Shown: positions 31,895 to 34,570 of the stretch, in pieces
Numbering within the stretch: position 1 is the stretch's first letter
Layout: each line of letters begins with the position of its first letter
Source of the DNA: a virus
Strand: one strand, 5' to 3'
Virus record (IMG/VR): IMGVR_UViG_3300044701_002494
Location: 32,007-96,006 of that record
DNA: 64,000 bases
The notes under the pieces: model-generated
Told to the model about the DNA's origin: nothing
The model's database searches: none
Seen by the model: the letters and a program-made list of their open reading frames with translations, nothing else
Program-made: the position numbers and the translations under genes

Positions 31895-32317
31895 TTACTC
31901 CTTATTATTTAGAAAACCTTTTTTTAGTAGTTTTGATAATTCTGAAGTAGATCCTACAAAAACAGCATTATTTGTCACGTTATTAGTCGTTTTAACAGTA
32001 TCCTCCTCAACATCTTTTAGTTTCTTTTGCAAATCAATAAGTTTATCAGTAACATCTCCAACACTCTTAATTAATTGTCCAGCAACTTCATATGCTCTTG
32101 GACTCCCACCCTCTCCAGCGAGTTCCATTATTCCATTAATTGCCTCCTGCCCCTTTTCAATCAATGAATATAAGTTTGCCCTCGTATATTCATAATCTTT
32201 CTTAATATCATCCGTTTTAATTGGTGTAATATTTAAATCTTCCTTTACCTTTTCAATTTCAACTACATCACTCTCAACATTTAGAGCAGAATTTAAATTT
32301 TCATACTTGTTTGACAT
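31895..32317 (-). CDS. 16: Terminase small subunit gp16
   Basis: From the ATG at 32317 the protein is 140 residues, mainly helical, with DYEYTRANLYSLIEKGQEAI and LIKSVGDVTDKLIDLQKKLK, matching the coiled-coil oligomerisation core of T4-like gp16. It recognises DNA and regulates gp17. In-frame upstream TTG codons are less likely starts because they would run into gp15. The gene lies between gp15 and the 477-residue gene. Confidence 0.9.
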   Translation of the reverse strand: MSNKYENLNSALNVESDVVEIEKVKEDLNITPIKTDDIKKDYEYTRANLYSLIEKGQEAINGIMELAGEGGSPRAYEVAGQLIKSVGDVTDKLIDLQKKLKDVEEDTVKTTNNVTNNAVFVGSTSELSKLLKKGFLNNKE

Positions 32318-32322
32318 AAAAA

Positions 32323-33123
32323 TCAAATATCAATTTGTCTTGTTGGACTATAAGATTTGGAATCTGAGAAATCCTCCCAAACTTCATTAAATCCAAAATC
32401 ATCATCTGGATCGGCATCGATGGGATCTGGAGTTACAGTGTATCTAACCTCTCTCTTAGCAGTATTTGTATCGGTAGTTGAGTACATATCAACTTGAACC
32501 TTACGAATAAGACCATCACTACTTTCTGCAATTGGTCCAAATAAGTATGTTTTTGCAGTAAAATTAAATGTATAAATTAAAACCCTTCTCGTTGAATAAT
32601 CTCCTTCATAATCATCTGTAAAAGAAACATTGTCTAAAACGACTGGAATATCTCTTTTTTCCCCTATTGAATCCACCAAATCAACGCTTAAATTAAATGA
32701 GGGTTGAAAATATGGCAGTATCTGTTCTACAGCTTGTAGAGCATCATCTTGAAGTTTTGTCATCAAGTTTAATTGAAATCCTATGTTATATGGAACAGGT
32801 AAATATACTTTCTTAATGTTTCCACCATCATCGCAAGCTTTAAATGTTTGTGTTATGTTTGATTTTCTAGTTGGATCATATTGTATAGAATTCATTTCAA
32901 ATGAAAGTCTTGGAAGGGTTATTGCTATTGGTTTATTTAACTCCGGTTGCTGCTCAAGTCTTGCTAAAAACTTTTGCATTGGACCATAAGCAAGTGGAAT
33001 TTTTATCTCACTTATTGAATCACCAGAAGAATTTTTATGCCTTATATGAATATCATTAAATAATGTTCCAAATGCAATGACAGTTCTTCTAATGATTTCG
33101 TGATAAAAATAAGTTCCTAACGT
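32323..33123 (-). CDS. 15: Tail sheath stabilizer gp15, unusual ACG start
   Basis: The conserved frame reads GTYFYHEIIRRTVIAFGTLF, then KIPLAYGPMQKFLARLEQQP and a C-terminal domain ending in SPTRQIDI. This matches gp15, which caps the tail. The normal N-terminus would begin with ATG just before LGTYFYH, but here the codon is ACG (33123-33121). The frame is stopped by TGA at 33144-33142, and only ATA, ATC or ACG could serve as start between. The internal ATG at 32979 would delete 48 residues. With ACG the protein is 266 residues, the usual length. Either initiation is non-canonical or the base is an error or mutation. Confidence 0.85.
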   Translation of the reverse strand, partial: TLGTYFYHEIIRRTVIAFGTLFNDIHIRHKNSSGDSISEIKIPLAYGPMQKFLARLEQQPELNKPIAITLPRLSFEMNSIQYDPTRKSNITQTFKACDDGGNIKKVYLPVPYNIGFQLNLMTKLQDDALQAVEQILPYFQPSFNLSVDLVDSIGEKRDIPVVLDNVSFTDDYEGDYSTRRVLIYTFNFTAKTYLFGPIAESSDGLIRKVQVDMYSTTDTNTAKREVRYTVTPDPIDADPDDDFGFNEVWEDFSDSKSYSPTRQIDI

Positions 33124-33172
33124 CTTCCTATACCCGATTATTCAAAAATTATTAATAGATTATATTTATTTA

Positions 33173-34570
33173 TCAAAATATACCAAATGGATTTTTTTCA
33201 CTAAAATCTAAAATTGAGTCCGACTCATCCTCTATTAATTTATTTTCACCATATTTATCATATAGGTCCCAATTTATATATGAATTTACAGAATAACTAG
33301 CACTAGAGATTGAACCTACTAAAACTTCACCAGGATAAAATCCGTTCTTAGAAGAATCATTTACAAAAGAAACTTTAAGTATTTTTGTATCTTGATCCCA
33401 ACTCTTAACTCTTGCAGTAGTTCCTGAAGATGAACCAGTGACAATTTCATTAAAAACATATGTACCAAATCCAACTAAAACGGGTGGTGGTTGAATTTCA
33501 ACTGTTGGCGTATCAGTGTAACCAGTTCCCGGATTTGAAACTAATATTGTAGAAATATTTTTGTTTGTCCCCAAAGATGCAATACCTACTGCAGTCTGAG
33601 CAAAGGAAATTGGTTCTGATGGTGATGAAATAGTTACAATTGGGACCGAAGAGTATCCAGTTCCCTGGTCAATCATAGTAAATCTTAATATGCCCTTATA
33701 AGTAGTTTCTATAGAACAAGTTGCAGCGGCACCAATTCCACCTCCACCGGAAATATCTATAGATGGAGGTTCGGTGTACCCAGAACCTGCGTTGGTTAAT
33801 AGAATATCAAAAATAGAATAAACTCCTCCGGCACTAGTTGTTATTGCAACTGCTGTTGCATTGTCTCCAGTGGGTGATGTCGAAATACTAACAATTGGTA
33901 TAGAAGTATATCCATATCCATCATCATTTATGAATATCTCTCTAACATAACTAGTTCCTATAGATGCTGAGGCAGTTGCAGTTCTTCCAGTTCCAACAAG
34001 TTGTAAGGTTGTTATGTACCCCTCATCTTGAATTTGAGTATCAATTTCGTCAATTGTAGTTTCAATAACTTCATCTTCATATTCAAATAATTCACATTTC
34101 AGTTCATACATGTATAGTTGCCCCAATTGATAAAAAGGTTGCTCATTTTCTACAAATTTAATTTCAAAAATTCTTTGTCCAAGGGGAAAATAAACTAAAT
34201 CACCTTCTCTGGGGCGTGAAGAAATGGTAATTTCCGAAGGACTTTCAGTCTCTAAAAATGGAGATATAAAATCTTCGAATCTTTCTTTAGAAATTACTAA
34301 ACTTAATTCATCTTTTAAATTTACACCAAATTTTGTTAAGATATCACCCTGCCCAGAATATCCATCATAGTTGTTTATATATGCTTCTAAAGCAAAATTA
34401 TCATCAAACTTTGAAGATTGTATTTCTTTGATAATAGACTGACTTCTTATGAATTTTCTAGGTATATAAACTATTTCAACACCATAAATTCTCAAATGTT
34501 CATTAATTAGTTCTTGAACTAATCTCTGCTCATTTTGAGAACCTTGTAAGAAGAAAGGATTGAGTGCCAT
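33173..34570 (-). CDS. 14: Neck protein gp14, extended
   Basis: The N-terminal half matches gp14: MALNPFFLQGSQNEQRLVQE, VYIPRKFIRSQ, and REGDLVYFPLGQRIFEIKF followed by YMYELKCELFEYEDE. With gp13 it forms the neck joining head and tail. At 465 residues it is longer than T4 gp14 (256), because the C-terminal half holds repeats of the form GxGYxxxPxVxI (GYGYTSIPIVSI, GSGYTEPPSIDI, GTGYSSVPIVTI, GTGYTDTPTVEI). The same module appears in the giant baseplate proteins. A GATAAATA-like late box follows the stop. Confidence 0.93.
   Translation of the reverse strand: MALNPFFLQGSQNEQRLVQELINEHLRIYGVEIVYIPRKFIRSQSIIKEIQSSKFDDNFALEAYINNYDGYSGQGDILTKFGVNLKDELSLVISKERFEDFISPFLETESPSEITISSRPREGDLVYFPLGQRIFEIKFVENEQPFYQLGQLYMYELKCELFEYEDEVIETTIDEIDTQIQDEGYITTLQLVGTGRTATASASIGTSYVREIFINDDGYGYTSIPIVSISTSPTGDNATAVAITTSAGGVYSIFDILLTNAGSGYTEPPSIDISGGGGIGAAATCSIETTYKGILRFTMIDQGTGYSSVPIVTISSPSEPISFAQTAVGIASLGTNKNISTILVSNPGTGYTDTPTVEIQPPPVLVGFGTYVFNEIVTGSSSGTTARVKSWDQDTKILKVSFVNDSSKNGFYPGEVLVGSISSASYSVNSYINWDLYDKYGENKLIEDESDSILDFSEKNPFGIF

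Follow-up and report, generated by a model that had tools for sequence, protein, structure and literature searches.

The gp15 gene of an uncultivated T4-like phage carries ACG where its relatives carry ATG, and we consider it on balance probable that a mobile element brings with it a small initiation module and that translation of gp15 starts at this ACG, the exact start codon being the one predicted from sequence comparison. The stretch analysed here (the window, 64,000 nt) belongs to a 96-kb record of an uncultivated virus, a T4-like phage. In it, gp15, encoding the T4-type tail sheath stabiliser or tail terminator, occupies positions 32323..33123 on the minus strand (266 codons counted from the ACG). 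On the same strand it is flanked by the gene for the gp14 neck protein (head closure; 33173..34570; PF11649, phrog_460) and, as the next gene, that for the terminase small subunit (gp16-like; 31895..32317; PF11053, phrog_445). These neighbours, together with a whole-domain match to PF16724 (295 bits, residues 5–252), place the protein in the T4-type gp15 family. It also matches phrog_227 (E 1.9e-99) and, over nearly its full length, the homologous tail terminator T4 gp15 (PDB 4HUH/3J2M, E about 1e-29), the alignment beginning at residue 5 of the window protein and at residue 4 of the T4 structure. Its closest matches are the gp15s of Synechococcus phages.

Read on the minus strand, the frame runs NF*IIGYRK-T-LGTYFYHEIIRRTVIAFG, where T is the ACG at 33123-33121 (33121..33123) and the asterisk marks the in-frame stop, TGA, which bounds the gp15 frame on its upstream side (33142..33144). 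The initial annotation had read an open gp15 frame with ACG in the place of ATG, and reading the frame and comparing relatives bear this out: at exactly this codon, relatives have ATG. It was also right that no in-frame ATG, GTG or TTG occurs from the TGA as far as residue 49, that the 49-base gap between the gp14 stop (33175-33173) and gp15 contains no ATG in any frame, and that the internal ATG at 32979 is residue 49, a start at which would leave 218 of the 266 codons. A TTG at 33145-33143 lies out of the gp15 frame and reaches a TAG after five codons; initiation there followed by a +1 frameshift was rejected because the TTG is not conserved (CTG in loci L116 and L275). A ribosome hop from gp14 was rejected as well, since neither the distance nor the sequence upstream is constant and, in some forms, a 530-base gene intervenes.

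Among the viral contigs scanned, ACG precedes the conserved gp15 N-terminus in 54, and the cultured freshwater cyanophage S-SRM01 (MW015081) likewise has ACG at gp15 codon 1. All sequences are metagenomic except S-SRM01, and several loci share contigs, so that counts are given per contig (54) or per distinct sequence (35). In the 54 contigs and in S-SRM01, the ACG is always preceded by a near-identical block, TTGAATAAWCGGGTAYAGRAARACG. Two IMG/VR contigs (L091 and L127) match the window exactly around the start, and the full record of the window has the same sequence there. A single assembly does not by itself exclude a wrong base, a misassembly or a recent inactivating change confined to one genome, but other contigs are identical and the ACG is common to 35 distinct sequences and an isolate; error and recent mutation are therefore both refuted, and we give them practically no credence. 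Of the three options raised initially, the rare non-canonical start is thus the best reading, and the other two fall away.

What had been missed is where the ACG comes from. Judged by sequence match, the ACG together with the preceding 22 bases forms the 3′ end of an HNH homing-endonuclease element that was inserted here and is mostly deleted in the window. Between gp14 and gp15 of S-SRM01 and several contigs lies an HNH homing-endonuclease gene, the 3′ end of which is the conserved block; the end of this gene (..KKCFE*) in S-SRM01 and other loci is the same block as the 25-base sequence TTGAATAATCGGGTATAGGAAGACG of the window (33121..33145, minus strand), a scar of the element that we propose to be an initiation module. 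In filled alleles, the last HNH codons and the tail TTTGAATAATCGGGTATAGGAAAACG lead directly into gp15 codon 2, and HNH genes stand ahead of the ACG in L082, L085, L090, L094/L077, L117, L126, L131, L134 and L286. In relatives without the block, the gp14 stop overlaps the gp15 ATG as TAATG. Comparison of close pairs reveals an exact exchange of TTCTAATGCTTGGAAC (empty) for TTCTAAGC...HNH...GAATAATCGGGTATAGGAAAACGTTAGGAAC (filled); gp15 is 96% identical between filled and empty alleles in L077 and L080, and about 90% identical when L082 and L010 are compared with L013. The endonuclease of the filled allele matches the phrog_655 homing endonucleases (E 7.9e-18) and carries an HHIIPKHMGG..N..L..EH motif, read by eye, while a Pfam search of the HNH protein gave no match. 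A late-type TATAAATA stands in front of the HNH gene or the scar in relatives, and the window has the similar GATAAATAAATA at 33163..33174 (minus strand), read directly, which may serve as a T4-type late promoter. The window itself represents the scar state, in which the HNH gene is gone and 25 bases of the element's tail are kept; its whole 96-kb record, possibly a fragment, contains no match to the endonuclease gene.

Occupied and empty alleles in close relatives and a scattered distribution across the gp15 tree are both seen, as for a homing element. On a tree of 185 gp15 proteins, the state of the block changes at least 12 times, also in the very distant gp15s L286 and L287; this is a minimum on an inferred tree on which gain is not separable from loss, and recombination among gp15s makes such trees approximate and may blur the exact number. 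A distant gp15 (L303) has the block and the ACG beside a broken, degenerate HNH gene 58% identical to the S-SRM01 copy. The block was found only in front of gp15, two chance hits aside, and the pattern hits L281/L282, L288/L289, L256-L257 and L290-L294 were dismissed as chance. The pattern looks as if one element had repeatedly homed to a single site, homing being the mode of spread that we infer from it. Several lineages lost the HNH gene separately, with differing upstream boundaries, yet all keep at least TTGAATAA...ACG; that separate deletions stop at the same end point suggests that the 25-base module is needed. A relative of the HNH gene (47% identical) lies directly behind a gp13-like gene in L305 and L306, without the ACG block, and marks another insertion site nearby.

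The ACG is constrained at the level of its bases. Across the 35 distinct sequences (tree length 5.24), no change was found at any of its three positions, whereas 24 conserved fourfold codons of the same gp15s underwent 2–15 third-base changes each (mean 7.7). Given this difference from comparable codons, the ACG does not behave as an ordinary Thr codon, of which ACG is a rare one here (55 of 846 Thr codons). In a scan that did not constrain codon 1, copies of the block carried ACG, ATG or, once, ATT, and never another Thr codon. ATG occurred only where the spacing is shortened to 16–17 bases, and in these copies, on a tree of length just 0.44, the block is already drifting; no block copy showed a C-to-T change giving ATG at unchanged spacing. 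The ATT belongs to a scar (L275, IMGVR_UViG_3300009504_000187) and is another candidate for a non-standard start. Since the alternatives at codon 1 are start-like codons, the pattern fits a start codon. S-SRM01, whose contractile tail is documented by microscopy in its genome paper (PMC8557907), is a cultured phage, and a functional gp15 must therefore be made from an ACG allele. Starts at ACG are very rare in bacteria. Against the ACG stand its weakness in E. coli, where initiation reached 0.1–1.5% of that at ATG in one reporter set (PMC6925171), and the absence of the single C-to-T change that would yield ATG with the spacing kept.

The same block offers one other in-frame start-like candidate, the AUA at 33139..33141 (minus strand), 18 bases upstream of the ACG and overlapping the former HNH stop UAA (as AUAA). 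By termination-reinitiation or direct initiation, gp15 might begin there with six additional residues (M-I/N-G-Y-R-K), which would make the ACG an internal Thr codon; the N-terminus would be MIGYRKTLGTYYYH, as against MLGTYYYHEIIR for a start at the ACG. As a weak start, AUA is better known than ACG, and in the 35 distinct sequences it is invariant and always in frame at 18 bases, with no indels in the interval. The leader codons −3 to −1 (TAY AGR AAR) show 6, 9 and 2 third-position changes against 3 elsewhere, and no other of the nine sites is as variable as these third positions (expected by chance once in 84); this variation looks like that of coding sequence and would weakly favour the upstream AUA. 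However, a start at AUA leaves unexplained why the ACG never becomes ACA, ACC or ACT when comparable codons change 2–15 times, and why GGG at −4 shows no third-base change. In addition, the ATA sits inside a wholly invariant stretch, TGAATAA; a scan permitting ATG, GTG or TTG at its position found only ATA and never ATG; and the six-residue extension is absent from phages without the insert. We regard initiation at the AUA as doubtful and the ACG as the preferred start.

A consistent Shine-Dalgarno sequence is absent before gp15, which counts against a start at the ACG, though one is present for only 10 of the 37 window genes. A conserved RNA fold at the start was rejected, single-sequence folds being weak and inconsistent (−4.5 to −9.8 kcal/mol), as was a third-base constraint on codon 2 (YTA), for which relatives with ATG also prefer TTA or CTA. 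A special tRNA with a CGU anticodon was discarded too, as the window has no tRNA and none of the 12 of S-SRM01 is of this kind. The 'translation initiation factor 2' of S-SRM01 (L253:14515-15273) is a NUMOD3 repeat protein by Pfam, and a phage initiation factor was rejected on this basis.

Initiation further downstream, at an internal ATG, GTG or TTG, would deprive gp15 of 20–80 N-terminal residues. Annotators of both S-SRM01 and S-T4 chose internal ATGs in the GenBank entries. In S-T4 (L084, MH412654), though, an ATG overlapping the gp14 stop is present at the normal N-terminus, so that this annotation is merely wrong. The first internal start varies among the sequences (residue 21, 35, 40, 49, 53-56, 62, 68 or 73), and the first common to all lies at about residue 81. 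The N-terminal residues of gp15, moreover, stay the same through synonymous changes at third bases, and they can be aligned with the T4 protein from residue 4 of its structure. Internal initiation is not supported and is largely refuted, its probability being very small indeed.

Only slightly less improbable is the restoration of AUG in the RNA by C-to-U editing, or a start reached through splicing or frameshifting around the insert. We know of no C-to-U editing of start codons in bacteria or phages. An intron is disfavoured by scar forms that leave no room for one and by the filled site, where no Rfam group I or II intron matched the junction in L082, L085 or L092. Precedents do exist in plant chloroplasts, where ACG is edited to AUG start codons (PMC9845219), and S-SRM01 has a psbA gene that is split and accompanied by an endonuclease ORF (PMC8557907).

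Based on these observations, we propose the following scenario, in which (i) a free-standing HNH element consisting of a putative late promoter, the HNH gene and a 25-base tail has inserted repeatedly, probably by homing, at the gp14/gp15 junction of T4-like cyanophages; (ii) its tail, ending in ACG, has overwritten the gp15 ATG; (iii) the tail would act as a compact initiation module on which ribosomes begin gp15 at the ACG with initiator tRNA; and (iv) the window, like most relatives, has lost the endonuclease gene but retained the module and the ACG. T4 gp15 is a hexamer and a low-copy tail part, and for this reason a low output of gp15 may be enough. As to why the ACG persists, one idea is that weak initiation suffices or is even favoured, another that ATG is harmful, for example by recreating the endonuclease target. 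A bolder version, which we hold to be rather unlikely, would make the ACG an immune allele: a homing-dispersed, mobile 25-base initiation module would cause ribosomes to start an essential structural protein at ACG, and because the endonuclease would need an ATG in its target, the ACG would protect even phages that lack the endonuclease gene.

The arrangement resembles that of the free-standing homing endonucleases seg and mob of T4-like phages (Edgell et al. 2010, PMC2988022), with an HNH gene between genes and beside an essential virion gene, a late promoter, presence or absence in close relatives, and repeated spread. In T4, such insertions push aside regulatory signals of the essential gene that follows, as with the gene 32 promoters inside segG (PMC2988022). 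In contrast to seg and mob, the insertion described here removes the very start codon of the essential gene that follows and puts in its place a non-AUG codon, which is conserved after loss of the endonuclease. In the literature searched, we found no described case of an inserted element replacing a start codon with a non-AUG codon that was then kept, and nothing on point about ACG starts in bacteria or phages. S-SRM01 shares the block, the ACG and a gp15 83.5% identical to that of the window but has the full HNH gene where the window has only the scar; the passages searched in its genome paper (PMC8557907) do not mention the gp15 start.

In T4 itself, gp15 begins with an ordinary Met and there is no insert. 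Bacteria have starts other than AUG, GUG and UUG, for example the AUU of infC. In such starts, as in the present case, selection retains a near-cognate codon at the head of an essential gene, and L275 even has ATT; here, unlike there, the codon is ACG, the gene encodes a phage structural protein, and the proposed start appears to have spread horizontally with a mobile element. Two further gp15 genes show frameshifts: that of S-SKS1 (L083, HQ633071, 2498-3303) begins with ATG, is split over three frames by two frameshifts, perhaps sequencing errors, and is unannotated, and that of L124 (IMGVR_UViG_3300046804_002714), with the block and ACG, shifts frame after about residue 104, through an assembly error or in reality.

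In one public genome, gene finders, which assume ATG, GTG or TTG, have cut about 40 residues off gp15. A phage gene with a naturally conserved ACG start would offer an unusual opportunity to test start-codon choice by the bacterial ribosome. A selfish element that captures the start signal of such an essential gene may also have made itself, or its scar, difficult to eliminate.
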